Source: Hydrogenimonas sp.
GTDB lineage: Bacteria; Campylobacterota; Campylobacteria; Campylobacterales; Hydrogenimonadaceae
Direction of reading: 5' to 3'
Length of the DNA stretch: 35,717 bases
Assembly (NCBI GenBank): GCA_015484905.1
Contig: WFUN01000024.1
Coordinates: forward strand, 1 to 35,717
Program-made: the position numbers and the translations under genes
Part shown: positions 4,470 to 30,909 of the stretch, piece by piece
How the letters are laid out: the number at the start of each line of letters is the position of its first letter
How positions within the stretch are numbered: the stretch's first letter is position 1
The notes under the pieces: model-generated
What the model was told of the DNA's origin: nothing
Databases searched by the model: none
The model's input: the letters and a program-made list of their open reading frames with translations, nothing else

Positions 4470-4547
4470 CGGGGTGTAGCGCAGCCTGGTTAGCGCACCT
4501 GGTTTGGGACCAGGGGGTCGAAGGTTCGAATCCTTTCACCCCGACCA
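4470..4547 (+). tRNA. tRNA-Pro(UGG)
   Basis: Acceptor strands CGGGGTG and CACCCCG (4537-4543) pair fully; discriminator A and encoded CCA follow. The anticodon loop TTTGGGA gives TGG. It is the first of five tRNAs downstream of the consensus promoter. Confidence 0.97.
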
Positions 4548-4578
4548 TTGGTAAGAGATTTCATTAAAAAATTGATAT

Positions 4579-4656
4579 GGTGGGTGTAGCTCAGTCGGTT
4601 AGAGCGCCAGATTGTGGCTCTGGAGGTCGCCGGTTCGATTCCGGTCATCCACCCCA
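4579..4656 (+). tRNA. tRNA-His(GUG)
   Basis: The acceptor GTGGGTG pairs with CATCCAC, with the extra 5' G (4579) opposite C73 that marks histidine tRNAs. The anticodon loop ATTGTGG gives GTG. An encoded CCA ends at 4656. Confidence 0.97.
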
Positions 4657-4732
4657 TCGTAGATAGTGATAGATATAACCGGCTGCCTGGAGAGTAGGTG
4701 GTTTTTATATTATTTAATAAATTAAAAGGTGT

Positions 4733-4809
4733 GCGCCCGTAGCTCAATTGGATAGAGCGACGGACTTCGGATCCGTAGGCTGGGGGTTCGACTCCTCCCG
4801 GGCGCGCCA
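4733..4809 (+). tRNA. tRNA-Arg(UCG)
   Basis: Acceptor GCGCCCG pairs with CGGGCGC (4799-4805), then discriminator G and CCA. The anticodon stem ACGGA/TCCGT frames the loop CTTCGGA, with anticodon TCG. Confidence 0.97.
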
Positions 4810-4821
4810 GCTTTCTATTGT

Positions 4822-4898
4822 GCGCCTATAGCTCAGCTGGATAGAGCAACGGCCTTCTAAGCCGTAGGTCTCAGGTTCGAATCCTGATGGGCGTACCA
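4822..4898 (+). tRNA. tRNA-Arg(UCU)
   Basis: Acceptor GCGCCTA pairs with TGGGCGT through two G-U wobbles, then A and CCA. The anticodon stem CGGC/GCCG frames CTTCTAA, with anticodon TCT. It lies 12 bases after tRNA-Arg(UCG). Confidence 0.96.
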
Positions 4899-4963
4899 TA
4901 CGGAAAACGGAAAGCTGAAAGCGGAGAACAGATAATTTTTTTTCCGTTGTCAGTCTGCTGCAT

Positions 4964-5048
4964 GCGGACGTGGTGGAATTGGTAGACACGCCAGACTTAG
5001 GATCTGGTGCCGCAAGGTGTGGAGGTTCAAGTCCTCTCGTCCGCACCA
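4964..5048 (+). tRNA. tRNA-Leu(UAG)
   Basis: A class II tRNA with acceptor GCGGACG/CGTCCGC, a long variable arm (TGCCGCAAGGTGT), discriminator A and encoded CCA. The anticodon stem CCAGA/TCTGG frames CTTAGGA, with anticodon TAG. It is the last of the five clustered tRNAs. Confidence 0.97.
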
Positions 5049-5263: not shown

Positions 5264-5326
5264 TAGTTAGTGGCATTTTATACTATACTTTCTTCGTATG
5301 ACTCAAACCAATCAGGAGATTACAGA

Positions 5327-6568
5327 ATGAAAAAGATACCACTTTCGTTAGTTGCGACAGTTATTGTTGGAGTATCCCTTCATGCGGATGAATTGAGCGA
5401 GCTTAAAGCAAAAATTATTGAGCTTCAGGAAAAAACCGATGCTTTGATCGATGAAACATCCGATTTGAAAACAGGATTCAGTCATACAACGGTTGAGGTG
5501 GACGCTTCTCAAAATGGAATGGGGCCAGCCGCTTCGAAGGTATACTATTCAAAATCACCTCTATCTATCGGCGGATATGGTGAAATGTACTGGGCATCTG
5601 AGGATAAAAGAGGTGAAAGAGCATATGCGGACGTCTATCGATTTGTGCCGTATATAGGCTATAAATTTTCCGACGAGATAATTCTTAACAGTGAATTGGA
5701 GTTTGAACATGGAGGCGAAGAGGTCGCTATAGAGTTTATGTATCTCGATTTTCTGTTTAACAGATCGTTCAATATTCAAGCGGGCAATCTTCTTGTTCCA
5801 ATGGGTTTGGTCAACCGCCGACATGAACCTACGCTTTTCAATACGATTCAAAGACCAGATGTGGAAAAATACATTATTCCATCTACATGGCACGAGAATG
5901 GTGTAGTAGTCTATGGCTCCATAGGAGAGAGCGGATTCAGCTACAGTGCCGGTATCATCAATGGATTGAATCTAAAAAATATAAGTAATGATGGGGTTAC
6001 ACAGCCATCGAAAAACTGGATAAAAAACGGAAGAATAGGTTCGCAGAACAAAGGGCCAATGGAGCGTGTGGCTTTTGTCGGGAGAGTAGACTATACCGGC
6101 AGAAACGGAGTGTTGTTGGGAAGTTCCGTATATTATGGTGGCGCTGCACAGGGAGATCCGAATGGGGTCAATGCACTGATTTACGATATTCATGCACTTT
6201 ATGAAAAGGAGGGTTTTAAACTCAAAGCTCTCTACACTGCACTCACTCTTGACGGTGCAGAAAAGATCGGGCCGAGATCGGCAAAAAGTGCGGAGGGGTA
6301 CTTTATAAACATGGAATACGATATTTTGGCAAGCAAAAATACGTCCAAAAGAGTGCCTCTTTTCGTCCAATATGAAAGCTACGATCCGGTTTCATCCGTT
6401 GTCAGCGGTGCACGTCCGGATCTGGAACAGACGAATATTACGGTAGGTGTAAACTTTTTTCCGCATGAACAGGTTGTGCTCAAAGCTGATTATGTCTTTA
6501 CAAATTACAATGATGCCAATAGCGAAGACTTCAACACATTTAGCGTAGGTATGGGATTTATTTTCTAA
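5327..6568 (+). CDS. Fur-box-associated outer-membrane porin-like beta-barrel protein
   Basis: The 413-residue product begins with a signal peptide (MKKIPLSLVATVIVGVSLHA, cleavage before DELSELK). A short coiled-coil segment (about residues 21-50) follows, as in trimeric porins. The rest is rich in alternating aromatic/polar strands, and the chain ends in an aromatic residue (SVGMGFIF), the usual outer-membrane barrel signal. The upstream in-frame GTG at 5270 lies within the promoter, while the ATG at 5327 follows AGGAG, so 5327 is used. Two Fur boxes precede it. Its partner genes suggest it passes iron or a ferric complex, or supports electron exchange; substrate specificity cannot be read from sequence. 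Confidence 0.88.
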   Translation: MKKIPLSLVATVIVGVSLHADELSELKAKIIELQEKTDALIDETSDLKTGFSHTTVEVDASQNGMGPAASKVYYSKSPLSIGGYGEMYWASEDKRGERAYADVYRFVPYIGYKFSDEIILNSELEFEHGGEEVAIEFMYLDFLFNRSFNIQAGNLLVPMGLVNRRHEPTLFNTIQRPDVEKYIIPSTWHENGVVVYGSIGESGFSYSAGIINGLNLKNISNDGVTQPSKNWIKNGRIGSQNKGPMERVAFVGRVDYTGRNGVLLGSSVYYGGAAQGDPNGVNALIYDIHALYEKEGFKLKALYTALTLDGAEKIGPRSAKSAEGYFINMEYDILASKNTSKRVPLFVQYESYDPVSSVVSGARPDLEQTNITVGVNFFPHEQVVLKADYVFTNYNDANSEDFNTFSVGMGFIF

Positions 6569-6612: not shown

Positions 6613-7143
6613 ATGATGAGATATTTAATCGTATGGTTATTGATATTCTATTCCGTTGCGGGCGCCGTCGTCTTGATTTCGCCTTTTGAAGCTATGCGAC
6701 AAACGTTTGCAAACGAGTGTACGGTTACAAAAAAAAATACTCTTTTGAACAAAAAGCAGGCGGCGAAGGTTTCCGGAAAAGCTAAATTGAGATTGAATAC
6801 AAAAATCTTCCGGATATATACTGCAAGTATCGATGGAGAGCCTATTGGGTATGGAGTACTTATAACGCGTAAAGTACGCCAGAAAGATGCCGCTGTTTTA
6901 TATATGATGGACTTGAAAGGGGTGCTCAAAGGTATAGAGATCATAGTCTTCGGCGAACCGCCGGAGTATATTCCCAAAAATGGATATTTAAAACAGTTCG
7001 AAGACAAAAGTGATGGGGACATGTTGAGAGTGGGTAAAGATATCCCCTCTATAAGCGGAGCTACGTTGAGTGCCCGGAATATTACCGACGGAGCAAGATT
7101 GGCACTTGCCGTCTTCGATGTACTGATAGGAAAACGTTTATGA
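6613..7143 (+). CDS. FMN-binding domain protein, predicted ApbE flavinylation substrate
   Basis: A 176-residue protein with an N-terminal membrane anchor (residues 3-22) and an extracytoplasmic domain of the FMN_bind type found in RnfG/NqrC. The motif SGATLS is at 148-153; in this family the threonine (T151) carries FMN through a phosphoester bond made by ApbE. The preceding segment (IDGEPIGYGVLI, and GVLKGIEIIVFGE) fits the domain core. A second ATG at 6616 has better spacing from AGGAA and could be the true start. It lies 44 bases after the porin, and its stop overlaps the next start (ATGA). An apbE gene lies nearby on the opposite strand. An electron-carrying role in the periplasm is inferred. 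Confidence 0.88.
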   Translation: MMRYLIVWLLIFYSVAGAVVLISPFEAMRQTFANECTVTKKNTLLNKKQAAKVSGKAKLRLNTKIFRIYTASIDGEPIGYGVLITRKVRQKDAAVLYMMDLKGVLKGIEIIVFGEPPEYIPKNGYLKQFEDKSDGDMLRVGKDIPSISGATLSARNITDGARLALAVFDVLIGKRL

Positions 7144-7622
7144 GATTCACACTTGTCAAAGAGTTGCGCACTGACCCGCTCATGCGACCACTATTGAACG
7201 GAGTGCTTATTTTCATAGTCGCTTTTTTGTTTGTGGATATATTTTTGAAATATGAACGTACTGGTATAGATGTCGCAACCATTTCCAATACGCTCTATGG
7301 AAACGAGGAGGAGTTTGCTGATCCTATTTCCGAACAGTTTTTTCTGGAATTACTTCATGCAGAGATATTTTTTATCATGATGACTCTGTTGACGCTTTCA
7401 GCAATATATGCCAGATTGGCTCCGATAAAGCGCAGGATGCTGATCGTTATCAATGTTATTTCGCTTGCGGCAATTTCTGAAGTTGTCATGTTTGTACTTG
7501 CCTATTATGTCGGAAGCCTATTCATCTATATATGGATAGTCTCTTTCTGGACTTGGCATATAGGAGCGATTTTTGTCTCAACTCTTTCACTCTTTTATTT
7601 GAACTTTCAAAGAGGTGGATGA
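7140..7622 (+). CDS. Four-helix integral membrane protein A of the flavin cluster
   Basis: A 160-residue protein of unknown family with four predicted transmembrane helices (about 19-36, 69-91, 100-122, 127-155). Residues of note are G54-N55 in the loop before helix 2, H73 at the start of helix 2 and H140 in helix 4. The start overlaps the FMN-binding gene by ATGA, and its stop overlaps the next start, indicating translational coupling. The sequence aligns with the next protein (shared GN-x17-H and a shared W-I-rich final helix), so the two look like paralogues that may form a heterodimer. A quinol or haem electron relay is possible, but nothing in the sequence proves it. Confidence 0.82.
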   Translation: MRFTLVKELRTDPLMRPLLNGVLIFIVAFLFVDIFLKYERTGIDVATISNTLYGNEEEFADPISEQFFLELLHAEIFFIMMTLLTLSAIYARLAPIKRRMLIVINVISLAAISEVVMFVLAYYVGSLFIYIWIVSFWTWHIGAIFVSTLSLFYLNFQRGG

Positions 7623-8077
7623 TAATGTATGCTGCATATCGTGCCGCTATCGTATATTTCGTTATATTCGGTCTCTTTCTTCTTGGTTCCGGTTTGTCTC
7701 TTTTTTTGAACAAAATAGGCTACTGTGCAGACGATATTTCACTATACTATCTTGGCAACGGAACAAGAAGCGCAAAATCGGTATCGGGCCTTATGGAAAC
7801 AGCTGTACCGCATCTGGGCGCCATTGGTTTTTTTGTAATGGTTGCTGCCCATTTTATGCTGTTTGCTTCAAAGAAGGCAAAGCTGCATGCCGTCAAAATC
7901 GCTACGATTCTTTTTGCGGCCTCCATGCTCGATATTCTGTGCGGGTTTTTCATATTGCAACACGATTCGGTATGGATATGGATAAAACTCGCTTCTTTTA
8001 CGGTATTTATGGTTGCAGGTGTCTATCTGTTGTTGATGGTACTTTTTTATGCATTATGGCATGCGCCATCTCAATGA
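7619..8077 (+). CDS. Four-helix integral membrane protein B of the flavin cluster
   Basis: A 152-residue membrane protein of unknown family, with helices at about 9-31, 66-84, 92-113 and 118-147. G46-N47 is followed after 17 residues by H65, the same spacing as in the upstream gene; H78 lies within helix 2. Cys36 precedes the GN loop. The ATG at 7619 overlaps the preceding TGA; an alternative ATG lies at 7625. A longer in-frame version from 7532 would lie within the previous gene and is rejected. The 3' end overlaps apbE by seven bases on the opposite strand. The histidines could bind haem; this is inference. Confidence 0.82.
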   Translation: MIMYAAYRAAIVYFVIFGLFLLGSGLSLFLNKIGYCADDISLYYLGNGTRSAKSVSGLMETAVPHLGAIGFFVMVAAHFMLFASKKAKLHAVKIATILFAASMLDILCGFFILQHDSVWIWIKLASFTVFMVAGVYLLLMVLFYALWHAPSQ

Positions 8078-9060
8078 GGCTCTTTTAAAACAGTGACGAA
8101 TTTTGGGAGTTTATCGCTTTTAATCACGGTTTTGTCGTTATAAACCAGAACATACGCTACCGGTAAGGAGTCGAGAAACGAAACGGCTTTATCGGGCGGC
8201 ATGACAGCAGCTGCTGTTGTCCATGCATCGATGTCGCTGTTGTCGGCGGTGCCAATAAGCGTGATTGAAGCGAAATGTTTTTGTGGCGAGAGAGTTTTTG
8301 GATCGATCAGGTGGTTGTTTTCCTTTGTGCCTACAAATCTGCGATAGTTTCCGCTGGTGCTTATTGCTGTCTCGTCCATATTGGTTTCAAATAAAAAAAG
8401 TGGATCTCTTCCGAAAGGATCTTCTATGCCCAAATAGCATGTTCCAAGGCATCTGATGTCGCCGCTCAAGGCTATTTTGGCGCGAACGGCGCCGCACTGT
8501 TTCACTCTCTTCATGGCTTTGTCCACTCCAAAGCCTTTTCCAAATCCGCCCATATCGATAAATACGTTTTGTGAGAGTTTTGCATGGCTTTGATTGAATT
8601 CGACAAATTGTGGATCTGTCTGCGCCTGTTTCAAAACTTTTTCTTCCGGTATCTGTTCGTTTTTTCCAAAATGGTAGAGAGCTTTCGTTACGCTTCCTAT
8701 GGCTATATTGAAATATCCGTCACTTTGCCTGTAATACTCTTTCGCCTTAACCAATGCTTCATGTGTGATCATAGAAATGGGACTTTTACGCATCGTGTTC
8801 AGTTTGTAGATATCGGCCTCCTTATCGAAAGACGAAAGTGCTTTTTCAACATCTTTCATCGTTTTAAAAGCCGCATTTATGCAATTCGATTTCTCTTCAT
8901 CTACAACTACGGTTGCGAAAGTCCCCATAATGATCTGTGTGCGTGAAACCATTTCGCTCCGGCTGCAGTTCGGGAAAATTATATGAAATAAAAGTATTAA
9001 GAATAGCGAGCCGATAGCTGTTGAAGTTTTTTCATAAAGTCTGTTTTCATGCCCAAACAT
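8071..9060 (-). CDS. apbE: ApbE family FAD:protein FMN transferase
   Basis: The 329-residue protein has the ApbE fold signatures: IMGTFATVVV near the start (residues 44-53), S-x-Y-x-I-type helix regions, IDMGGFGKGFGVD at 168-180, SGD at 199-201, HLIDPKT at 250-256 and the metal-binding DAWTTA at 278-283. ApbE uses FAD to attach FMN covalently to a threonine of FMN_bind proteins, with Mg2+, outside the cytoplasm. A hydrophobic N-terminus (13-30) fits an export signal; C32 is not in a good lipobox. It converges on the membrane-protein genes. The FMN-binding protein with SGATLS about 1 kb away is its obvious substrate. Confidence 0.94.
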   Translation of the reverse strand: MFGHENRLYEKTSTAIGSLFLILLFHIIFPNCSRSEMVSRTQIIMGTFATVVVDEEKSNCINAAFKTMKDVEKALSSFDKEADIYKLNTMRKSPISMITHEALVKAKEYYRQSDGYFNIAIGSVTKALYHFGKNEQIPEEKVLKQAQTDPQFVEFNQSHAKLSQNVFIDMGGFGKGFGVDKAMKRVKQCGAVRAKIALSGDIRCLGTCYLGIEDPFGRDPLFLFETNMDETAISTSGNYRRFVGTKENNHLIDPKTLSPQKHFASITLIGTADNSDIDAWTTAAAVMPPDKAVSFLDSLPVAYVLVYNDKTVIKSDKLPKFVTVLKEPH

Positions 9061-18403: not shown

Positions 18404-18721
18404 ATGGAAAAAATTCGACTAAAACTCAAAGCGTACGATCATCGTGTGCTTGATCGGTCAGTTGCTGCAATTGTTGAAGCAGTCAAAAGAACGGGTGCGG
18501 AGATACGCGGCCCAATTCCAATGCCTACAAAGATCCGACGCTACACGGTGCTCAGATCGCCTCATATCAATAAAGATTCTCGCGAACAGTTTGAAATCAG
18601 AATGCATGGACGGATGATAGATATCGTCTCTGCGACTCCTGATACGATCGATTCGCTGATGAAATTGGATCTTGCACCTGAAGTAGACGTCGAAGTGCGA
18701 TCTATGGGTAATAAGGGGTAA
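18404..18721 (+). CDS. rpsJ: 30S ribosomal protein uS10
   Basis: The 105-residue protein has the S10 pattern from [20 protein letters not shown] through [19 protein letters not shown] to [10 protein letters not shown]. It is part of the 30S head and, as NusE, of antitermination complexes. It is the first gene of the superoperon, with its promoter about 70 bases upstream; rplC follows after three bases. Confidence 0.98.
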
Positions 18722-18724
18722 CGC

Positions 18725-19303
18725 ATGGAATTCATCGTAGAGAAAATCGGTATGAGCCGAACAATCAGTGTGCCAAGCGTAGCAGTGACGCTTCTGAAGG
18801 TGCAGGATGTAAAAGTCTGCGAGATTGCACCGGATGGTCGCGCTATTGTAGCTTATGCAAGCGGAAAGAAACGTAACAAAGCGACAGAAGGCCAGCAGAA
18901 AAAGTATGGCCTTAGTCCGGAATTCAACCGTTTTGCGACACTTCGGGTTGCTAACAAAGAAGCGGGAGATCTGGATCTTGCTCCGCTCACAGAAGCGAAA
19001 AAGGTCAAAACGACGTTCAAGACAAAAGGACGCGGATTTTCCGGAGTCATGAAAAGATGGAATTTTGCAGGTGGCCCCAAGAGCCACGGTTCACGTTTTC
19101 ACAGAGCCCCGGGTTCTATAGGAAATTGTGAATGGCCAGGTCGTGTGCAGCCCGGACAGAAGATGCCCGGACAGTATGGCAACACAAAAGTAACAGTCAA
19201 AAATGAGATCGTATCGTTTGATCCAGAGAAGAGGATTCTTGTGGTAAAAGGTGCCGTTCCCGGACCTAATGGAGCGATGGGTCGAGTAAGGATTTTCAAA
19301 TGA
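18725..19303 (+). CDS. rplC: 50S ribosomal protein uL3
   Basis: A 192-residue protein with L3 signatures [30 protein letters not shown] and [12 protein letters not shown]3 is an early 23S rRNA binder near the peptidyl-transferase centre. The stop overlaps the rplD start (ATGA), so translation is coupled. Confidence 0.98.
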
Positions 19304-19917
19304 GTAAGGCAGCAGTTGTTTTAAACGAAAATTTGGAGCGTACGGGAGAAGCGGAAGTTCCTGCAGATTTTTTTGAAGCGAATCCGCATAATCTGTACCT
19401 GTATATCAAGTCATATCAGGCGGCACTGCGTTCAAATACCGCACACTCCAAAAACCGTTCGGCGGTTAGCGGCGGAGGCAAAAAGCCCTGGTCCCAAAAA
19501 GGCCGTGGCGGTGCGCGTGCAGGCTCTATTCGTTCTCCTCTGTTTGTAGGTGGCGGTGTTGCTTTCGGACCGAGGGCAAACCGCAACTATACTCAGAAGG
19601 TGAACAAGAAACAGAAGCGCCTTGCACTTATGCATGCACTTGCGGAAAAAGCTGCCAACGGCAAACTCTATATTGTTGATGCAATAGAGGTTAGAAGCGG
19701 AAAGACTAAAGATGCCGCAGGCTTGATGAGCAAACTCGGCGAGCGTGATGCTCTTTGGGTCAAGTCGCTGATCGACGACAAAACCTATTTGGCATTTAGA
19801 AATCTTCCAAACTGTTATTTGATAGAAGAGAATGAACTCAACGGCTATCTGGCAGCGGCGTACAACGCGGTTGTAATTGAAAAAGCGGTTTGGGAAAATC
19901 TGACGAAAAAGGGCTAA
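19300..19917 (+). CDS. rplD: 50S ribosomal protein uL4
   Basis: This 205-residue L4 has the exit-tunnel loop region [20 protein letters not shown] followed by [14 protein letters not shown]. The loop reads KGRGGARAG where many bacteria have KGTGRARAG, a small variation. L4 can repress the S10 operon in Escherichia coli; no matching leader is evident here. Confidence 0.97.
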
Positions 19918-19918
19918 G

Positions 19919-20200
19919 ATGGCAGATATTACAGACATCAAATCGATACTCTATACGGAAAAGACTCTCGGTCTTCAGGAAGATGGGGTAATCGTGGTTC
20001 AGACATCTCCAAAAGTTACCAAGAATCAGCTCAAAGCGATTTTTAAAGAGTATTTCGGCGTAAATCCCGTTAAGGTCAACTCGCTTCGCCAGACCGGAAA
20101 AGTAAAGCGTTTTCGTGGAAAAGAGGGCAAGCGTGCAGATTTCAAAAAATTTTTCGTTAAGTTGCCCGAGGGCGCAAATATCGAAAGCCTGAGCGTATAA
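19919..20200 (+). CDS. rplW: 50S ribosomal protein uL23
   Basis: A 93-residue protein with the L23 pattern [12 protein letters not shown], the central [12 protein letters not shown] and the basic [13 protein letters not shown] stretch. L23 surrounds the exit tunnel and docks SRP and trigger factor. It starts one base after the rplD stop codon. Confidence 0.97.
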
Positions 20201-20210
20201 GGAAAAGAAG

Positions 20211-21041
20211 ATGGCAATTAAAACTTATAAACCGTATACTCCCAGCCGCCGCTATATGAGCGGAGTCGACAATGGAGATATCACATCCAGGCCAACCGTT
20301 CGCAAGCTTCTTAAAAAGCTTCCGGCCAAGGCTGGACGCAACAATCGTGGTCGTATAACATCCCGTCACAAAGAGGCGGGAGCGAAAAAACTATACCGTA
20401 TCATCGATTTCAAGCGCAACAAGTTTGGTATAGAAGGGACAATATCTACTATAGAGTATGATCCATACAGAAACTGTCGCATCTGTCTTGTCACTTATGC
20501 TGACGGAGAGAAGCGCTATATCATTCAGCCGAGCGGACTGAAGGTGGGTGACAAAGTTCAGGCGGCGGAAGCCGGTCTTGATATAAAACCGGGCAATGCT
20601 ATGAAACTCAAAAACATTCCTGTAGGTACGCTGGTACACAATATAGAAATGAAGCCCGGAAAGGGTGGACAGATTGTAAGAAGTGCCGGTGGATACGCAC
20701 AGATTATGGGACGAGAAGGCAAATATGTGATTGTAAGACTTCCCAGCTCCGAGATGAGAAAAGTTCTCGGTGAGTGCATGGCCACTGTCGGAACTGTCGG
20801 AAACGAAGAGTTTTCCAACATTGTCATCGGCAAGGCGGGAAGAAGCAGACATCTTGGCATACGCCCCCAGACACGTGGTTCGGCCATGAACCCGGTTGAT
20901 CACCCGCATGGTGGTGGTGAAGGCAAGACCAACTCGGGACGTCATCCTGTAACACCTTGGGGCATGCCCACAAAAGGCTTCAAAACTCGTCGTAAAAAAG
21001 CCAGTGACAAACTGATCATTTCGCGACGCAAAAAGAAATAA
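20211..21041 (+). CDS. rplB: 50S ribosomal protein uL2
   Basis: A 276-residue protein of normal L2 length, starting [16 protein letters not shown]. It contains [18 protein letters not shown] and the conserved catalytic-centre segment [18 protein letters not shown] with the invariant His. L2 supports subunit joining and peptidyl transfer. Confidence 0.98.
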
Positions 21042-21052
21042 GAGGGTAAAAA

Positions 21053-21334
21053 ATGGCAAGATCGATTAAAAAGGGTCCTTTCATAGATGAGCATCTGATG
21101 AAAAAAGTGCTTAAAGCGAAAGAGACCGGAGATACCAAACCTATAAAGACCTGGTCACGCCGAAGTACCATCTTTCCGGAGATGATCGGACTGACCATAA
21201 ATGTCCATAACGGACGACAGTTTGTTCCTGTGTATATTACGGAGAACCATGTTGGATACAAACTCGGCGAGTTTGCTCCGACACGTACATTCAGAGGCCA
21301 CAAGGGCTCTGTTCAAAAAAAGATCGGGAAGTAA
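21053..21334 (+). CDS. rpsS: 30S ribosomal protein uS19
   Basis: A 93-residue protein starting [19 protein letters not shown], with [18 protein letters not shown] and [13 protein letters not shown]-like [16 protein letters not shown], all typical of S19 in the 30S head with S13. It starts eleven bases after rplB. Confidence 0.98.
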
Positions 21335-21344
21335 GGGGTAGATG

Positions 21345-21671
21345 ATGAGTAGAGCAACACTTAAGTTCATCCGCCTCAGTCCGACAAAAGCGCGGCTTAT
21401 TGCACGTGAGGTACAGGGAATGAATGCCGAACTTGCACTGGCGAGTCTCGAGTTTATGCCCAATAAAGCGGCGAAAGTCATCTCCAAAGTGATCGCATCG
21501 GCGGTTGCAAATGGCGGATATGAGCCGGAAGAGGTAGTAATCTCTTCATGCCGCATTGACAAAGGGCCGGTCCTGAAACGATGGAAGCCGCGTGCGCGTG
21601 GTCGTGCATCACGAATAATGAAACCAACATCTCATGTGATTGTCGAAGTCACGGAAGCGAAGGATAAGTAA
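21345..21671 (+). CDS. rplV: 50S ribosomal protein uL22
   Basis: A 108-residue protein, [20 protein letters not shown] onward, with the tunnel hairpin [14 protein letters not shown]. Two tandem ATGs occur (21342, 21345); AGGGG six bases upstream and the family start favour the second. The stop shares a base with the rpsC ATG (TAATG). Confidence 0.97.
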
Positions 21672-22366
21672 TGGGTCAGAAAGTCAATCCGATTGGTTTG
21701 CGCCTTGGAATCAACAGAAACTGGTCGTCGCGCTGGTATCCGAACTGGCAGCGAGTTCCTGCGTTTGTTGCAGAAGATGACAAAATAAGAAAGTTTCTCA
21801 AAAAAGAGCTCTATTACGCAGGAATTGCGGATATTATCATTGAGCGTACCGCAAAACGCCTGCGTGTAACCATAGTTGCTGCACGCCCCGGTATAATCAT
21901 CGGTAAAAAAGGTGCAGATATCGAGAAACTGAAAGATCGTCTGCAAAAGATGGTTCAAAAACCGGTTGCTCTGAATATTCGTGAAGAGAAACGACCGCAG
22001 GCTTCGGCCCAGCTTGCAGCGGAAAATATTGCTACGCAGCTCGAACGACGTGTGGCTTTCCGCCGTGCGATGAAAAAAGTTATCCAGGCTGCGCAGAAAG
22101 CAGGCGCAAAAGGGATCAAGGTTCAGGTTGCAGGACGTCTTGGCGGAGCAGAAATGGCACGAACAGAGTGGTATCTGGAAGGGCGGGTGCCTCTTCATAC
22201 GCTTCGCGCAAAAATAGATTATGGCTTTGCAAGCGCATATACCACATATGGAATTATCGGGGTAAAAGTGTGGATCTTCAAAGGTGAGGTTCTTCAAAAA
22301 GGAATCCAGCCGGAGCCAGCAGAAGAGAAGCGCAGCCGCCGAGCTCCGAGACGTGGAAGGAGTTAA
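21671..22366 (+). CDS. rpsC: 30S ribosomal protein uS3
   Basis: The 231-residue protein has [20 protein letters not shown], the KH-domain loop [16 protein letters not shown] and the C-terminal domain ending in a basic tail ([10 protein letters not shown]). S3 forms part of the mRNA entry site. The start overlaps the rplV stop by one base. Confidence 0.98.
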
Positions 22367-22369
22367 GTT

Positions 22370-22795
22370 ATGTTGATGCCTAAAAGAACGAAATACAGAA
22401 AGCAGCAAAAGGGTAGAAATCGCGGAAAATCTTACCGCGGCTGTCAGCTTGCATTTGGAGATATCGGTATAAAAGCGACCGAAGCGGGCCGAATAGACAG
22501 TCGACAGATTGAAGCGGCTCGTGTCGCCATGACTCGTCACGTCAAGCGAACGGGTAAGGTATGGATTAGAGTGTTTCCGGACAAACCTCTTACGGCAAAA
22601 CCTCTCGAGACGAGAATGGGTAAGGGTAAAGGTTCGGTAGATAAATGGGTTATGAATATCAAGCCGGGCCGCATAATATATGAAATGGCCGGTGTAGAAG
22701 AGAAGCTTGCACGTGAAGCTTTGACACTGGCGATGCACAAACTCCCTTTCAAAACAAAAATTGTAACTCAAGAGGCCAGCAATGAAATATACTGA
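22370..22795 (+). CDS. rplP: 50S ribosomal protein uL16
   Basis: A 141-residue protein starting [20 protein letters not shown], the form of the start common in Campylobacterota, with [20 protein letters not shown] and [12 protein letters not shown]. The ATG at 22370 is kept because the MLMPKRTK start is conserved. The stop overlaps rpmC by 14 bases. Confidence 0.97.
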
Positions 22796-22973
22796 AATTA
22801 AAGACAAAAGCTTGCAGGAGCTTGAAGGGATGTTGAAAGAGAAAAAGATGGAGCTGTTTGAGATGAAACTCAAACTAAAGACGATGCAGCTAACGAATCC
22901 AAACGAGATTCGTGCTGTCAGAAAAGATATAGCACGCATCAAAACCGCCATCAGCGCGCAGAAGAATGCATAA
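22782..22973 (+). CDS. rpmC: 50S ribosomal protein uL29
   Basis: A 63-residue two-helix protein: [20 protein letters not shown] and [18 protein letters not shown] are the L29 helices. It neighbours L23 at the tunnel exit. Its start lies within the 3' end of rplP. Confidence 0.96.
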
Positions 22974-22982
22974 GGATTAAAA

Positions 22983-23240
22983 ATGGCGTCTCATAAACGT
23001 ATTATTCAAGGAACCGTTATCAAGAAAGCGGGCGATAAAACGGCGACTGTTCTTGTAGAGCGTCGCGTAATGCATCCTCGCTATCACAAGACGGTAAAAA
23101 GATTTAAAAAATACCTCGTTCATGATGAACGAAACGAAACGAAAGTAGGCGATATCGTTATGGCGATCGAGTGCAGACCGCTTTCCAAAACCAAATCGTT
23201 TCGCCTTAAGGAGATCGTGAGTACAGGAGTCGGGTCATGA
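22983..23240 (+). CDS. rpsQ: 30S ribosomal protein uS17
   Basis: An 85-residue OB-fold protein with [38 protein letters not shown] and [20 protein letters not shown], matching S17. The stop overlaps the rplN start (ATGA). Confidence 0.97.
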
Positions 23241-23605
23241 TTCAAAGTTTTACAAGACTCAATGTCGCAGACAACAGTGGTGCGAAAGAGATTATGTGTA
23301 TAAAAGTTTTAGGTGGCAGCAAGCGGCGCTATGCCAGTGTGGGTGATGTCATTGTCGCTTCTGTCAAAAAAGCGCTTCCGAATGGAAAGGTTAAAAAAGG
23401 ACAGGTTGTAAAAGCGGTGGTTGTCAGAACAAAAAAAGAGATTCAGCGTGAAAACGGATCTTTGATACGTTTCGACGATAATGCCGCAGTGATTCTCGAC
23501 AGTAAAAAAGAGCCTATAGGTACACGTATTTTTGGACCGGTAAGTCGTGAAGTTCGTTATGCAAACTTCATGAAAATCGTATCTCTTGCTCCGGAGGTTC
23601 TCTAA
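23237..23605 (+). CDS. rplN: 50S ribosomal protein uL14
   Basis: A 122-residue protein of standard L14 length: [40 protein letters not shown] and [12 protein letters not shown]14 forms an inter-subunit bridge. It shares a base with rplX (TAATG). Confidence 0.98.
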
Positions 23606-23841
23606 TGGCTAAGAAGTTCAAGATCAAAAAAGGCGACACTGTCGAAATTATAGCCGGTGACGACAAAGGAAAGCAGGCAGAAGTTCTTCGTGTACTTCCT
23701 GCCAAGGATGCAGTTATAGTGGCTGGATGCAAAGTGGCGAAAAAGGCCGTCAAGCCGACAGAGCAGAATCCGGATGGTGGATTTGTAAACAAGGAGATGC
23801 CTATACACATCTCAAATGTACGCAAAGTGGAAGGTGCATAA
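23605..23841 (+). CDS. rplX: 50S ribosomal protein uL24
   Basis: A 78-residue, compact L24 with the KOW motif [20 protein letters not shown] and [11 protein letters not shown] near the end. It is shorter than the Escherichia coli form (104), as in other Campylobacterota. L24 starts 50S assembly. Confidence 0.96.
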
Positions 23842-23842
23842 A

Positions 23843-24394
23843 ATGCTGAGACTCAAAGAAAAATTTCAAGAACTCAAGCCGGTACTGCAAGAAGAGCTCG
23901 GCATAAAAAACCCGATGCTTGTTCCGGCATTGGAGAAGATTGTCATAAGTGTCGGATGCGGCAGTGATGCAAAAGATACCAAAGTGGTACAAAATATTGC
24001 CGATACGATTACGTTGATTGCCGGACAAAAGGCGATTATTGTCCCAGCCAGAAAGTCGGTAGCGGGATTCAAGGTACGAGAAGGCATGCCCGTCGGAGTA
24101 AAAGTGACTTTGCGCGGAAAATTGATGTATAACTTTCTTGACAAGCTGATCTCTATCGCTCTTCCGAGAGTAAAAGATTTCCGTGGAGTTTCAAGAAACG
24201 GTTTTGACGGTCATGGAAACTATAATTTCGGACTCAACGAGCAATTGATGTTTCCGGAAGTCGAGTATGACAATATCATCAAAACACACGGTATGAACAT
24301 AACTATAGTTACAACGACTGATAATGACAAATCGGCATTCGCGCTTCTTGAAAAGCTCGGCATGCCTTTTGCAAAAGGACGACAAAATGGCTAA
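23843..24394 (+). CDS. rplE: 50S ribosomal protein uL5
   Basis: A 183-residue protein with L5 motifs [26 protein letters not shown] and [21 protein letters not shown]5 contacts 5S rRNA and the P-site tRNA. The start one base after the rplX stop is used; an upstream in-frame ATG inside rplX is rejected. Its end overlaps rpsN by eight bases. Confidence 0.97.
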
Positions 24395-24572
24395 GAAATC
24401 TATGATTGCCAAGCAGAAGCAGAAACCAAAATTCAAAGTTCGTGCATATTCACGCTGCAGTATCTGTGGTCGACCGCACTCCGTATACAGGGATTTCGGT
24501 ATCTGTCGAATCTGTCTGCGAAAAATGGCTAGCGAAGGTCTTCTTCCTGGCGTAAAAAAATCAAGCTGGTAA
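24387..24572 (+). CDS. rpsN: 30S ribosomal protein uS14, zinc-binding type
   Basis: A 61-residue S14 of the short C+ form, with four cysteines at C24, C27, C40 and C43 (CSIC, CRIC) that bind zinc. The start lies within the end of rplE; a longer in-frame reading from 24324 is inside rplE and rejected. No cysteine-free copy is in the window. Confidence 0.97.
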
Positions 24573-24582
24573 GGAGATGGCA

Positions 24583-24978
24583 ATGGTGAACGATCTAATT
24601 GCAGATTCATTGACACGCATTAGAAACGCATCGATGCGAAGATTGGAAGTGACAACGCTTCTATATTCGAAAATCGTTGAAGCGATTATGAAAATCTTGC
24701 AGGAAAAAGGGTATATTGAGAGCTACAAAGTCGTTGAAAACGACGGCAAGAAGACGATCAACGTCGTACTCAAGTATGATGACGAAGGCAGAAGTGTCAT
24801 AAATGAAATCAAGCGTATCTCCAAGCCTGGCAGACGAGTGTATAAAGGCAAAGAGATGATTAAGCGATTCAAAAACGGCTACGGCACCATTGTCGTAAGC
24901 ACATCTCAGGGCGTATTGGCCAACGATGAGGCGTATAAGCGTGGAATCGGTGGCGAAGTTCTGTGCAGTATCTGGTAA
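24583..24978 (+). CDS. rpsH: 30S ribosomal protein uS8
   Basis: A 131-residue protein, [20 protein letters not shown], ending in [27 protein letters not shown], the classic S8 end. AAGGAG abuts an ATG at 24577, so the ATG at 24583, six bases on, is the better start. S8 represses the spc operon in Escherichia coli. Confidence 0.97.
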
Positions 24979-24988
24979 GGAAATTAAT

Positions 24989-25522
24989 ATGTCAAGAATA
25001 GGAAAGAAACCGATTGATATCCCGACAGGCATAGAGGTCAAGGTCGAGGGTACAGAAGTTGTCGTTTCCAAGGGAAAAGATATCAAGCGTCTCGATACGC
25101 ACGGACGTGTAGATATTGAAATTGCCGATAACAAAATTGTATTTCATCGTAAAGGTGACAATAAGGCGAGCAGTGCATTCTGGGGCACATATCGTGCGCT
25201 TACCCAAAATATCATCACAGGGCTCACTCAGGGATTCGAGAAGAAGCTTGAAATCAACGGAGTCGGTTACCGGGCAGCCGTAAAAGGGAGAGTTCTCGAG
25301 CTTCAACTCGGTTTTTCCCATCCTGTAAACTATGATATTCCGGAAGGAATAGAGATCGGTGTCGAGAAGAATGTGATCACCGTAAAAGGGCAGGATAAGC
25401 AGAAGGTCGGTCAGGTAGCGGCAGAGATCCGCGCGTACAGACCACCGGAACCTTACAAAGGCAAAGGTGTCAAATATGTGGATGAAGTGATTCTCCGCAA
25501 AGCCGGTAAAACAGGTAAATAA
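24989..25522 (+). CDS. rplF: 50S ribosomal protein uL6
   Basis: A 177-residue L6 with its two repeated domains: [19 protein letters not shown] and the final [33 protein letters not shown] precedes the ATG at 24989; an upstream start within rpsH is not used. Confidence 0.98.
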
Positions 25523-25532
25523 GGGTTGAATA

Positions 25533-25889
25533 ATGAATAGAACACTACTCATGAAGAAAAATGTACAGCGCGCAAAACGCAAAGCCCGCGTACGTGGCAA
25601 AATATTCGGTACAGCAGAAAAACCACGTATTACCGTGTTCCGATCCAACAAACACATTTATGCACAGGCGATAGATGATGTTGCAGGTGTTACGTTGGCG
25701 AATGCAGACGGATGCAAGATGGGCCTGAAAGCCAATAAAGAAGCGGCTGTCAAAGTTGCGGAGGCGATTGCGGCTGCAATGAAAGCAAAAGGTATCGAGA
25801 CCGCGGTGTTCGATCGTAACGGTTACATCTACCATGGAGTAGTTGCCGCATTTGCCGACGCATTGCGTGAAAATGGAATACAGGTCTAA
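25533..25889 (+). CDS. rplR: 50S ribosomal protein uL18
   Basis: A 118-residue 5S rRNA-binding protein with [31 protein letters not shown] and the end [25 protein letters not shown], all typical of L18. It lies ten bases after rplF. Confidence 0.97.
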
Positions 25890-25901
25890 AAGGGTAAATA
25901 T

Positions 25902-26345
25902 ATGGAAAATATCAATCGTGAAGATTTTGAAGAGGTAATCGTCAATATAGGTCGCGTAACGAAAGTTGTAAAAGGTGGTCGACGATTCCGGTTTACGGCA
26001 CTTGTTGTTGTGGGAGACCGCAATGGAACGGTTGGCTTTGGAATGGGCAAGGCCAAAGAGGTTCCTGATGCAATTCGCAAGGGAATCGATGAAGCATTCA
26101 AAAACCTGGTCAAAGTCAACATCAAAGGCTCGACGATTGCTCACGATATTGAGCATAAATACAATTCGAGCAAAATTTTGTTAAAACCGGCCAGTGAAGG
26201 AACCGGAGTCATTGCGGGCGGCGCTGCACGGCCTGTTATAGAACTTGCCGGAATAAAAGATATTCTGACCAAATCGTTGGGCTCCAACAATCCGAACAAC
26301 CTGGTTCGGGCAACCGTTGAAGCATTAAGCCGAATCAAAGGATAA
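25902..26345 (+). CDS. rpsE: 30S ribosomal protein uS5
   Basis: A 147-residue protein with the S5 dsRBD-like part ([22 protein letters not shown]) and [20 protein letters not shown]5 sits near the decoding centre. In many bacteria rpmD (L30) follows; here rplO follows after four bases and L30 is absent. Confidence 0.98.
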
Positions 26346-26349
26346 GATT

Positions 26350-26748
26350 ATGTCACTTCACAATATTACAAAGGCGCAGGGCAGTACAAGCAGAACCAAG
26401 CGAGTCGGGCGTGGCCAGGGCAGTGGAATGGGGAAAACCGCTACACGTGGGAACAAAGGACAAAAATCCAGGACTGGCTATAAGCGAAAGCGTGGCTTTG
26501 AAGGTGGTCAGCAGCCGATACAGCGTCGTTTGCCCAAAATAGGCTTTAACTCACGTGTTGAAAAACCTTATGTTATCAACATTGAGCGTGTGCCGGCCAT
26601 CGCCGAATTGAACGAAATTACCATGGAGACACTTTTGACTGTACATTCGATCAAAGGCAAACACAAGCGCGTTAAACTGATCGGCAAAGGCGCGAAAGAG
26701 CTCGCTGGGAAAATAAAAGACGAGCACATTACAACCAGTGGAAAATAG
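26350..26748 (+). CDS. rplO: 50S ribosomal protein uL15
   Basis: The 132-residue protein has the L15 glycine-rich start ([24 protein letters not shown]) and [18 protein letters not shown]. It directly precedes secY by two bases. Confidence 0.97.
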
Positions 26749-26750
26749 CA

Positions 26751-28013
26751 ATGACTAAATCATTGGTCAATAAAATCCTGATTACCCTGGGGTTTTTGCT
26801 GGCATACCGGGTCCTGGCATATGTACCGGTACCCGGTGTAAACGTCGATGTTATCAAGGAGTTCTTCGATTCCAACTCCTCAAACGCTCTGGGCATGTTC
26901 AATATGTTCAGCGGAAATGCGGTAGAGCGACTGAGTATCATCTCTTTGGGCATTATGCCCTACATAACTGCGTCGATTATTATGGAGCTTTTGGCTGCGA
27001 CCTTTCCTGAATTGGGCAAGATGAAAAAAGAACGGGACGGGATGACCAAGTATATGCAGATTATTCGCTACGCGACAATAGGTATTACACTTGTGCAGGC
27101 AATCGGTGTTGCCATAGGCCTTCAGAGTCTCACGGGAAAAGGTGGTGAAAGTGCCATAATGATAGACACGACTACGTTTGTCACGGTTGCTGCATTCTCC
27201 ATGTTGACAGGAACTATGTTGTTGATGTGGATAGGTGAGCAGATTACTCAAAGAGGTGTTGGCAACGGGATCTCTCTTATAATTTTCGCCGGTATCGTCT
27301 CTTCAATTCCTACGGCAATCGGAGGAACGATCAATCTTGTAAATACCGGAGAGTTGAACTTCCTTGTGGTTCTGGCCATATTGGCGATCATACTTTTGAC
27401 AGTCGGTTTTATTATTTACGTAGAGCTTGGTGAAAGACGCATCCCGATCAGTTATTCGAGAAAAGTGATGATGCAAAACCAAAAGAAACGTGTAATGAAC
27501 TACATTCCCATCAAAGTGAATCTGAGTGGAGTTATTCCACCGATTTTTGCATCGGCGATTTTGATGTTTCCCTCTACGATTCTGCAGGCATCGACAAATC
27601 CGATAATGCAGAAAATTTCAGACTTCCTGAATCCAAACAGTTATACATTCAACTTTTTAATGTTTCTGTTCGTCATATTTTTCGCCTATTTTTATGCATC
27701 TATAGTTTTTAATGCAAAAGATATTGCCGACAATCTGAAACGTCAGGGAGGATTTATTCCCGGGGTACGTCCCGGAGCGCATACTGCAGAGTTTTTGAAT
27801 GAGGTTGCAAGTAGACTTACGTTTTGGGGAGCAATCTATTTGGCACTTATCTCTACGCTGCCATGGATTCTGGTAAAGAGTATGGGCGTGCCCTTTTATT
27901 TCGGCGGCACAGCGGTACTTATCGTAGTGCAGGTGGCACTGGACACTATGAGAAAAATCGAAGCGCAGATATACATGAGCAAATATGAAACACTTAGTGC
28001 GGTAGGTTTGTAG
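26751..28013 (+). CDS. secY: Protein translocase subunit SecY
   Basis: The 420-residue inner-membrane channel has ten predicted helices and SecY signatures: FNMFSGNAVERLSIISLGIM-PYI, GNGISLIIFAGI, the cytosolic loop YVELGERRIPISYSRK and GGFIPGVRPGAHTAEFL. It exports unfolded proteins with SecA, SecE and SecG. Map starts immediately after its stop (TAGATG). Confidence 0.98.
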   Translation: MTKSLVNKILITLGFLLAYRVLAYVPVPGVNVDVIKEFFDSNSSNALGMFNMFSGNAVERLSIISLGIMPYITASIIMELLAATFPELGKMKKERDGMTKYMQIIRYATIGITLVQAIGVAIGLQSLTGKGGESAIMIDTTTFVTVAAFSMLTGTMLLMWIGEQITQRGVGNGISLIIFAGIVSSIPTAIGGTINLVNTGELNFLVVLAILAIILLTVGFIIYVELGERRIPISYSRKVMMQNQKKRVMNYIPIKVNLSGVIPPIFASAILMFPSTILQASTNPIMQKISDFLNPNSYTFNFLMFLFVIFFAYFYASIVFNAKDIADNLKRQGGFIPGVRPGAHTAEFLNEVASRLTFWGAIYLALISTLPWILVKSMGVPFYFGGTAVLIVVQVALDTMRKIEAQIYMSKYETLSAVGL

Positions 28014-28772
28014 ATGGCAATTGCGATCCGAAAGCCAGCTGAAATAGAGAAGCTTCGGAAAGCAAACAGAATAGTCGCCGAGACACTGGAGTATCTTCGC
28101 AAAAATATTAAGCCGGGCATGACGCTCAAAGAGATAGATTCAATGGGCGAAGAGTTTATTCGCTCCAAAGGAGCCAAACCTTCCTTTAAGGGGCTCTATG
28201 GCTTTCCTGCAGCCGTATGCACCTCGCTGAACGAGGTGATAATTCATGGGGTGCCGGACGAAACCAAAATAAAAGAGGGTGACATTCTCGGTCTTGATAT
28301 CGGTACCGAGCTGGAGGGATGGTATGGCGATGCTGCTGTTACTATTCCGATTGGCTCGGTAAGCGAGGAAGATGAGCGTCTTATTGCGTGCGCCAAAGAT
28401 GCGCTCAATCATGCCATAGAAATAATACACTCCGGCATGCGTTTCAAAGAGCTGAGTCTGGAGCTTGAAAAATTTATCAGATCCCGTGGATTTACACCCT
28501 TGCTGAATTTTTGCGGACATGGAATAGGGCGCAAACCTCATGAAGAGCCTGAAATTCCCAACTACCTGGAACATGGAAGTTCCAAGAGCGGACCGAAAAT
28601 TAAAAACGGTATGGTGTTCTGTCTGGAGCCGATGATATGTCAAAAAACAGGAACTCCAAAAATTCTTGAGGATAAGTGGTCGGTCGTAAGCGAAGATAGA
28701 AGACGTGGAAGCCATTATGAACATACAGTGGCCATAGTGGGTAACAGAGCAGAGATATTAACGCAACCATAA
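28014..28772 (+). CDS. map: Type I methionine aminopeptidase
   Basis: A 252-residue Map. Metal ligands are visible as D and D in LDIGTELEGWYGDAAV, H in CGHGIGRKPHEEPEIPN, E in VFCLEPMI and E in HYEHTVAI. It removes the N-terminal Met from nascent proteins. Its place between secY and infA is common in Campylobacterota. Confidence 0.97.
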   Translation: MAIAIRKPAEIEKLRKANRIVAETLEYLRKNIKPGMTLKEIDSMGEEFIRSKGAKPSFKGLYGFPAAVCTSLNEVIIHGVPDETKIKEGDILGLDIGTELEGWYGDAAVTIPIGSVSEEDERLIACAKDALNHAIEIIHSGMRFKELSLELEKFIRSRGFTPLLNFCGHGIGRKPHEEPEIPNYLEHGSSKSGPKIKNGMVFCLEPMICQKTGTPKILEDKWSVVSEDRRRGSHYEHTVAIVGNRAEILTQP

Positions 28773-28781
28773 GGAGGAGAG

Positions 28782-29000
28782 ATGGCTAAAGATGATGTAA
28801 TTGAAATAGATGGAAAAGTGATCGAGGCGCTTCCAAATGCGATGTTTAGAGTTGAGCTTGAAAACGGACACGTGGTTTTGTGCCACATTGCCGGAAAGAT
28901 GAGAATGCACTATATTCGCATATTGCCGGGAGACAAGGTTAAAGTGGAATTGACTCCATACAGCTTGGACAAGGGCAGAATAATATATAGATATAAGTAA
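28782..29000 (+). CDS. infA: Translation initiation factor IF-1
   Basis: The 72-residue OB-fold protein has [49 protein letters not shown] and [11 protein letters not shown]-1 blocks the A site during initiation. AAGGAGGAG precedes the start, a strong ribosome site. The long gap to rpmJ follows. Confidence 0.98.
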
Positions 29001-29019
29001 GCTGTAAGTTGGCTTAATA

Positions 29020-29025
29020 TATAAT
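29020..29025 (+). promoter_or_regulatory. Possible -10 element upstream of rpmJ leader
   Basis: An exact TATAAT occurs 20 bases after infA, but the sequence 17 bases upstream shows no good -35 box. If active, it would start a separate transcript near 29032 covering the structured leader and rpmJ-rplQ. Confidence 0.4.
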
Positions 29026-29031
29026 TCCATC

Positions 29032-29366
29032 CCCTTTTCCATCTATATGAAGGAGTTTTGCATAAATCGCACTGTTTATGCAAGGGTCGGTTTGGCAGCG
29101 GTTCGCCAAACCTAAACAGGGGAGAGTTCGAAATGGTTTCGGATTCGTCAAGTGCAGAATGGAAGCTTTTTCAAAGTGAAATTTTATCTGCCTGTCTGTG
29201 GTTCATATTCAAAGCGGGCGGGTAGTTTTCGTATGGCATAGTGAAAAGCAATGCGGCTCAATCAGCGGTGTGGGCTCGTCTTTGCATGGGTTGTCCATTG
29301 GGAAGAACTCATCTTTAGCGCAAGTTTCACCGACATGGTCGCTGAAACGTAACAAGGAGACAAATA
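29032..29366 (+). ncRNA. Candidate structured leader RNA of the rpmJ-rplQ (alpha-type) operon
   Basis: This gap of about 335 bases breaks an otherwise tightly packed operon. It holds: a perfect 9-pair stem (29058-29066 with 29075-29083, 8-base loop); a perfect 8-pair stem (29089-29096 with 29105-29112, 8-base loop); a hairpin pairing 29226-29230 with 29243-29247 plus an inner TAT/ATA; and a long hairpin (29324-29334 with 29338-29348, one C-C mismatch), six bases before the rpmJ ribosome site AAGGAG (29354-29359). No T-run follows any of these, so they are not terminators. Escherichia coli regulates this gene group through an S4-bound leader; a similar role is inferred, not shown. Confidence 0.55.
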
Positions 29367-29480
29367 ATGAAAGTCAGGGCATCAGTTAAAAAGATGTGCG
29401 ATAAATGCAAAATCATCAAACGAAAAGGCATTGTTCGCGTAATCTGTATAAATCCCAAACATAAACAGAGACAAGGATAA
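29367..29480 (+). CDS. rpmJ: 50S ribosomal protein bL36, zinc-binding type
   Basis: A 37-residue protein, [20 protein letters not shown] and then [17 protein letters not shown]. The zinc ligands are C11, C14, C27 and H32. AAGGAG lies seven bases upstream. Too short for most ORF finders, but unmistakable, and just before rpsM as usual. Confidence 0.97.
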
Positions 29481-29482
29481 GC

Positions 29483-29851
29483 ATGGCACGTATTGCGGGT
29501 GTTGATTTACCTAAGAAGAAACGTTTGGAGTATGCGCTTACATACATATACGGTATCGGATTGACAACTTCGAGAAAGATTCTCGATGCTACAGGTATCA
29601 GTTATGACAAGCGTGTGCACGAGTTGAGTGAAGAAGAGGCTGCAGCGATTCGAAACGAGATTCAAAAAAATTATATGGTTGAAGGGGATCTTCGAAAAAA
29701 AGTCGCTATGGACATAAAATCATTGATGGATCTGGGAAGTTATCGCGGCCTGCGCCACAGACGTGGCCTTCCTGTGCGCGGACAGAAGACAAAAACGAAT
29801 GCCAGAACGCGCAAAGGCAAGCGTAAAACAGTCGGCGCGGCAAGCAAGTAA
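29483..29851 (+). CDS. rpsM: 30S ribosomal protein uS13
   Basis: A 122-residue protein, [20 protein letters not shown], with the [14 protein letters not shown] helix-two-turn-helix and [21 protein letters not shown]13 is in the 30S head and bridges to the 50S subunit. It starts two bases after rpmJ. Confidence 0.98.
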
Positions 29852-29860
29852 GGAGTAACA

Positions 29861-30253
29861 GTGGCTAAAAGAAAAACGACCAGAAAAAAGATAGTCAAAA
29901 AGAATATTGCCAGAGGTGTAGTCTATATCAGCGCTACATACAACAATACAGTCATTACCGTTACGGACGAAGCCGGCAATGTAATCTCCTGGAGCAGTGC
30001 CGGATCGCTCGGTTTCAAAGGGAGTAAAAAATCTACTCCATACGCTGCTCAGCAGGCAGTGGAAGATGCGCTTACAAAAGCGAAAGAGCATGGGATAAAA
30101 GAGGTAGGAATCAAAGTGCAGGGCCCTGGAAGCGGGCGAGAGACTGCGGTAAAGAGTGTAGGTGCGACAGAAGGGATACGTGTACTGTTTCTAAAAGACA
30201 TTACACCTCTGCCTCACAATGGGTGCAGACCACCTAAACGAAGAAGAGTATAA
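29861..30253 (+). CDS. rpsK: 30S ribosomal protein uS11
   Basis: A 130-residue protein with [20 protein letters not shown] and the end [18 protein letters not shown], both S11 hallmarks. The start codon is GTG (AGGAG seven bases upstream), a minor deviation from its neighbours. Confidence 0.97.
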
Positions 30254-30262
30254 GGGGACGAG

Positions 30263-30889
30263 ATGGCACGATATAGAGGACCGGTAGAAAAAATCGAACG
30301 TCGCCTTGGTGTGAGTCTCGGACTCAAAGGTGAAAGAAGGCTTGCTGGAAAGAGCGCGATCGATAAACGACCATATGCGCCGGGACAGCATGGACAGCGC
30401 AGAGCAAAAATCAGCCAATATGGACTTCAACTGCGGGAAAAGCAGAAGGCGAAATATATGTATGGTGTCGCCGAGAAGCAGTTCAGGCGACTTTTCAAAG
30501 ATGCTAACCGTATGGAGGGCAATACCGGAGAAAACCTGATTGCGCTTCTTGAAAGGCGTCTTGACAATGTGGTGTACAGAATGGGGTTTGCCACCACAAG
30601 AGCTTTTGCAAGACAGCTTGTGACACATGGTCATATTCTTGTGGATGGGAAACGGGTGAATATACCCTCTTACCGGGTGAAACCGGGACAGAAGATAGAG
30701 GTGCGGGAAAAGAGCAAAAACAATCCGCAGATACAGCGGGCCATGGAGCTCACCAGGCAGACCGGCATGGTGTCGTGGGTTGATGTGGATGAGACTAAAC
30801 TGTTTGGTATCTTTACGCGTGTTCCTGAACGTGAAGAGGTAGTTATTCCTGTAGAAGAGCGCTTGATCGTCGAGCTTTATTCCAAATAA
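30263..30889 (+). CDS. rpsD: 30S ribosomal protein uS4
   Basis: The 208-residue S4 has [20 protein letters not shown], the S4 RNA-binding domain ([30 protein letters not shown]) and no N-terminal zinc cysteines. S4 starts 30S assembly and, in Escherichia coli, is the regulator of this operon, which makes it the prime candidate ligand for the leader before rpmJ. Confidence 0.98.
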
Positions 30890-30909
30890 TAGTTAAAAGC
30901 GAGTTGCCC

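Follow-up and report, generated by a model that had tools for sequence, protein, structure and literature searches.

A pair of paralogous, predicted four-helix membrane proteins as a candidate electron carrier of a flavin-based periplasmic redox module in Campylobacterota

The available text of one survey (PMC8238504) describes flavinylation systems as dependent on a membrane component for the passage of electrons to an extracytosolic flavin. Several of these components are membrane cytochromes rich in histidine, DUF4405 and FezC among them, and FezC has been modelled as a homodimer, with the dimer completing the haem sites (PMC11334425, available text). DUF4405 was found by mining ApbE clusters without a recognised membrane electron carrier, as the available text of that survey relates (PMC11334425). 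In superoxide oxidase, a bundle of four helices and two b haems connects a quinone site with the periplasmic side (PMC11869295, available text). The periplasmic electron routes of Campylobacterota are poorly known. The word "porin" occurs 0 times in the main text of either survey as available (PMC11334425, PMC8238504), and "campylobacter" occurs 0 times in PMC11334425 and in the reference list only of PMC8238504. Our literature search, which lacked most subscription journals, found no paper on the pair of membrane proteins described here, MP1 and MP2, which offer a concrete carrier candidate with four named residues for ApbE clusters that have no recognised carrier.

The two proteins are encoded in the window, by which we mean the whole 35,717-nucleotide stretch of a Hydrogenimonas sp. 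contig that was analysed. Open reading frames and Pfam matches give the gene order porin, FMN_bind protein, MP1 and MP2, followed by a convergent apbE. The outer-membrane porin-like protein (5270..6568, + strand) is 432 aa long from the listed GTG start, has a coiled-coil-like stretch at its N-terminus and matches Pfam Porin_O_P at E 7e-5, above the cut-off; its true start is probably further in than the listed GTG. The periplasmic FMN_bind protein (6613..7143, + strand; 176 aa; Pfam FMN_bind E 2.7e-5) has an N-terminal signal or anchor and a predicted ApbE flavinylation site, SGATLS, with Ser153 as the target; in NCBIfam it gives a weak RnfG match below the cut-off. The end of its gene overlaps the start of MP1 (7140..7622, + strand; 160 aa) by four bases, and MP2 (7619..8077, + strand; 152 aa) starts inside the ATGA at 7619-7622 that it has in common with the MP1 stop, so that both reading frames and their overlap are as the earlier note had them. 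ApbE, an FAD:protein FMN transferase (8071..9060, - strand; PF02424 E 1.5e-51), is convergent with MP2. The cluster contains two parts of an ApbE-dependent flavinylation system, ApbE itself and an FMN_bind substrate with the [S/T]GA[S/T]x[S/T] motif, and each is the sole copy in the window's genome. As the genome has no other flavinylation system, removal of the cluster should give a clean phenotype. A scan for promoters and terminators found no excess. Elsewhere in the window, a tRNA array at 4470-5048 holds five genes (Pro, His, Arg, Arg, Leu), where the tRNA genes have almost certainly been misread as two minus-strand open reading frames of 85 and 101 aa, and a run of open reading frames at 18404-32276 (+ strand) resembles, by eye, the S10-spc-alpha ribosomal protein operons with secY.

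The association of the pair with an FMN_bind protein, ApbE and a porin, which is absent from the earlier note, is the strongest clue to the function of MP1 and MP2, and the linkage to the FMN protein is obligate across the genomes searched. Among 397 genomes of the class Campylobacteria, the MP1 profile matched 38, the FMN profile matched the same 38, and the MP2 profile matched those 38 plus one weak match in another genome (G261); by coordinates, the three genes lie side by side in all 38, which represent 8 of the 68 sampled genera. The module is patchy, since a single-sequence query at E 0.001 found MP1 in only 4 of the 18 genomes of the window's own genus. No MP1 match was found on plasmids and no match on viral contigs, and a search of a contig collection with the FMN alignment returned 2 loci only. 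Distance-matrix correlations are high (r 0.91 for MP1 with MP2, 0.80 for MP1 with FMN and 0.83 for MP2 with FMN), values that shared descent alone could give. At 32 distinct loci, with those that end too early scored as misses, a porin lies within about 1.5 kb of MP1 in 29 and ApbE in 24, and a porin homologue adjoins the FMN gene in 29 of the 32. In 20 larger neighbourhoods, script labels assign a porin to 17 and ApbE to 17; one of the misses for both (L086, genome G318) is false, as antisense open reading frames had displaced both genes and a second locus of that genome (L011) shows both, which leaves L073 and L081 without an adjacent porin and L077 and L084 without ApbE. Besides the five module genes, nothing recurs widely in these 20 neighbourhoods, and there and in the co-occurrence analysis MP1 and MP2 are the only membrane proteins tied to the FMN protein. 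We conclude that MP1 and MP2 are a real, conserved membrane pair in a flavin-based redox module, and one that is apparently undescribed.

When compared with the described systems, the pair resembles each in part. Like the ferrosome- or flavinylation-associated DUF4405 and FezC, MP1 and MP2 are membrane proteins with conserved histidines that are linked genetically to ApbE and a flavoprotein, as far as the available text describes the former as His-rich (PMC11334425), but the pair consists of two separate paralogous four-helix chains, not one six-helix protein or a homodimer, and the histidine layout differs, with H-x13-H in helix 2 of DUF4405 and H-x12-H in helix 2 of MP2. With the MsrQ-like and PepSY-like systems the pair would have in common a membrane carrier feeding an ApbE-flavinylated periplasmic domain, a feature given in the available texts (PMC8238504, PMC11334425), whereas MP1 and MP2 are split over two genes, have no fused FMN domain and show no sequence relation detectable with Pfam. 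The superoxide oxidase CybB is likewise a minimal four-helix bundle (PMC11869295, available text), but it is a single chain with no flavoprotein partner. The upstream gene has an FMN_bind domain, as RnfG and NqrC do; unlike in the RnfG/NqrC setting, Pfam shows no relation of the partner membrane proteins to RnfD/NqrB, and the genome contains no second FMN_bind protein.

The earlier note had taken MP1 and MP2 for paralogues, and profile-profile comparison places the two families together. When alignments A4 and A5, of 32 sequences each, were compared with hhalign, the two profiles aligned end to end over 143 columns with a probability of 96.3 and an E-value of 1.8e-9. A repeat of the comparison scored 55.5, with none of 60 column shuffles above 16.3, and reversed-profile controls gave P 0.36 and 0.23. 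The MP1 profile alone also matched several MP2 proteins (E down to 3.4e-6), and the MP2 profile matched one MP1 (2.9e-5). Pairwise BLASTP of the two sequences alone was not significant (E 2.1 and 49). Because of the profile match, its shuffled and reversed controls and the single-profile cross-matches, we conclude that MP1 and MP2 are, on the evidence of their profiles, ancient paralogues that stem from an old duplication.

The same description had offered a GN-x17-H signature as the mark that the two proteins share, and this proved right for the window's pair but not for the MP2 family. The spacing is exact in MP1, from G54-N55 to H73 (residues 54-73; 7299..7358, + strand), and in MP2, from G46-N47 to H65 (residues 46-65; 7754..7813, + strand). 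In the 32-row alignments, G[ND]-x17-H occurs in 28 of 32 MP1 proteins, whereas of the 32 MP2 proteins 15 have x19, 2 have x17 and 15 lack the motif altogether. We therefore rejected the x17 spacing as a homologous mark, since the relatives of MP2 mostly have x19 or lack the GN, and the exact 17 in both window proteins is partly luck. The remaining features of the description held up: FF follows the histidine in both proteins (at +4 in MP1 and +6 in MP2), the final helix is W-I-rich and ends in LFY in both, and the four helices per protein are borne out by AlphaFold2 models, made from the 32-row alignments with each protein as a monomer. The predicted long helices span residues 15-40, 65-93, 98-123 and 127-156 in MP1 (pLDDT 89.4) and 2-33, 55-82, 85-112 and 118-147 in MP2 (pLDDT 93.5). 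Both models contain an extra short helix preceding the GN turn, and the GN-to-His stretch connects that turn with helix 2.

The histidine at the start of helix 2, for which conservation had been supposed, is invariant in both proteins (MP1 H73, MP2 H65) in 40 of 40 loci, these being the loci of the 38 class genomes plus one from G006, a genome of the window's genus, and one from a Sulfuricurvum MAG (L036). Each protein also has a second invariant histidine that the earlier note had missed, H140 in helix 4 of MP1 and H78 in helix 2 of MP2 (40 of 40 loci). H65 and H78, which form an H-x12-H pair, are the only invariant residues of MP2 in these loci, while MP1 also keeps M1, F3, G42, G54, F77 and R92, and the FMN protein keeps G149-A150-T151-x-S153 (40 of 40). 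In neither 32-row alignment does a further column have histidine in at least 8 rows. A 13-residue step also occurs in one haem-ligating helix of NOX2. In depth along the helices, with membrane sidedness judged by eye from basic cytoplasmic loops, H73 and H65 are shifted towards the periplasm and H78 towards the cytoplasmic end, with H140 near mid-membrane, and the four do not form two obvious level pairs. A helix-face test placed H73 at 9, H140 at 42, H78 at 39 and H65 at 101 degrees from the conserved face and gave no clear ligand pairing among them. In the profile alignment, the first histidines of the two proteins fall two columns apart, so a strict equivalence of H73 and H65 may fail. Judged from the sequences, these invariant membrane histidines are of the kind expected of haem ligands, and they could alternatively serve a quinone site or bind a metal.

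Neither protein matched a Pfam family up to E 1, and each had one NCBIfam match far below the cut-off. We rejected membership in DUF4405 (PF14358), whose Pfam model matched neither protein up to E 1 and nothing in the window's genome; profile-profile comparison with 12 Campylobacteria DUF4405 proteins was not significant (MP1 P 0.37, MP2 P 0.1), and a short DUF4405-like group of 9 sequences matched MP2 weakly (P 0.019). The two families named by the earlier note for comparison fared no better in hhalign, as neither cytochrome b of the bc1 type (PF00033; MP1 P 0.28, MP2 P 0.03 over 106 columns) nor DoxX (PF07681; P 0.36 and 0.17) was significant, and on these comparisons we rejected MP1 and MP2 as members of either. 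A hydrogenase cytochrome b-like set was likewise not significant (P 0.23 and 0.19 against the MP1 and MP2 profiles), and there was no Pfam match up to E 1 to MsrQ/ferric reductase-like, PepSY-like or CybB/Ni-hydrogenase cytochrome b families. A sequence search of the PDB with both profiles gave 0 matches. In the PDB fold search, the best matches (MP1 Z 8.9, rmsd 3.1, 116 aligned residues; MP2 Z 12.0, rmsd 2.9, 136 aligned), within the range that the tool calls common for helical bundles, were generic four-helix bundles, and the fact that no cytochrome came out on top says nothing firm. The window's genome, which is rated 99.8% complete, encodes two DoxX proteins elsewhere (C72:22955-23197 and C79:961-1200), the DoxX profile being unrelated to MP1 and MP2. 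PF00033 cytochrome b was not found in that genome and is present in 35 of 41 sampled genomes of the class.

We consider it fairly probable that MP1 and MP2 are ancient tandem duplicates that act jointly in a flavin-based periplasmic redox module, in which they would carry electrons at the inner membrane. We assign this role to the pair because the published flavinylation systems depend on a membrane carrier, for which the cluster contains no other candidate. Since no other membrane protein is tied to the FMN protein and both MP1 and MP2 carry invariant membrane histidines, we favour a route from quinol through MP1/MP2 and FMN to a periplasmic acceptor. Quinol in the membrane would donate electrons to MP1/MP2, where b-type haem, with the four invariant histidines as its ligands, would most likely carry them. 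The pair would then reduce the covalently bound FMN of the upstream-encoded periplasmic protein, which the neighbouring ApbE would flavinylate on Ser153, and the FMN protein would in turn reduce a substrate, perhaps an iron(III) species, for which the co-encoded porin would be the way in. MP1 and MP2 would probably be a heterodimeric cytochrome b working from quinol to flavin, much as the earlier note had imagined a heterodimer whose histidines bind haem or quinone; we infer the haem, the dimer, the direction of electron flow and the substrate or final acceptor. Counted in favour of the pair as a carrier is a weak relative of MP2 (in G261) with a c-type haem motif in loop 1, beside an EB_dh protein, and counted against it are that no known haem protein was matched by sequence or by fold and that the histidines form no obvious level pairs. 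A bolder proposal, which seems to us a serious possibility that stops a little short of probable, is that the pair represents a new class of transmembrane electron carrier for ApbE-flavinylated proteins, unmatched by sequence to known carriers. It would be a split cytochrome b in which two paralogous four-helix subunits share the haem ligands (the helix 2 pair of MP2 and the pair from helices 2 and 4 of MP1), and with its own porin it would give Campylobacterota a complete inner-to-outer-membrane redox unit whose task may be iron(III) reduction.

If no haem were present, the pair could still be a quinone-binding anchor whose histidines bind and deprotonate quinol while electrons hop directly to FMN at the periplasmic face. 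Such an arrangement would suit the position of H73 and H65 towards the periplasmic end of helix 2, the invariant R92 alongside the histidine on helix 2 of MP1 and the lack of a family match to a cytochrome. However, four invariant histidines exceed the need of a single quinone site, H78 and H140 lie in the inner half or middle of the membrane, and MP2 keeps just its two histidines, so we regard this as rather unlikely. More doubtful still, and in our view improbable, is that MP1 and MP2 have no electron role and transport a flavin precursor, haem or metal to load the FMN protein and ApbE. ApbE does depend on periplasmic FAD, and a flavin transporter is part of some flavinylation clusters, as reported in the available text (PMC11334425). 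Yet neither Pfam nor NCBIfam shows any similarity of the pair to a transporter family, and the cluster would have no electron source without MP1 and MP2. Flavin transporters are also, to our knowledge, not typically built as small four-helix bundles that have invariant histidines in the membrane. The obligate linkage to the FMN protein would fit a chaperone or assembly factor for that protein or for the porin as well, again with no redox role. We give this the least credence, as very improbable, because paralogues of the FMN protein stand without adjacent MP1/MP2 at two loci (L097 and L098), though both genomes have the full set elsewhere, and because it leaves the histidine pattern unexplained.

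Three genomes contain a second FMN protein (loci L097, L098 and L099), and these loci bear on the substrate of the proposed electron-transfer module. At L098 it follows a porin directly, and neither MP1/MP2 nor ApbE adjoins it. At L097:764-7522 it lies opposite two imelysins, a di-haem oxidoreductase, a fatty-acid-hydroxylase-like (FA_hydroxylase-like) protein and a porin related to that of the window. At L099:6150-11019, feoA/feoB-like genes, named from sequence inspection and not from a family scan, face an outer-membrane protein, a divergent FMN_bind protein and ApbE, and this gene set suggests flavin-based iron reduction. Iron is a lead because of the imelysin and Feo genes at these paralogous FMN loci, and it is a lead only because queries for FeoA, FeoB, imelysin and di-haem oxidoreductase found none in the 20 main neighbourhoods and the window; iron(III) reduction as the role of the module is a guess drawn from two paralogous loci.

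The weak MP2 match in G261 (L100:4983-5690, - strand) is a predicted membrane protein of 235 aa whose first loop contains a CxxCH haem motif, and an EB_dh protein (L100:5702-6766, - strand) adjoins it. It gave no match to MP1 (P 0.052), and its similarity to MP2 begins at helix 2 (P 7.6e-5; score 33.5, with none of 100 shuffles above 21.0), so that it is possibly a distant, weak relative of MP2. Homologues of this CxxCH protein occur in 12 of the 44 genomes of its family.
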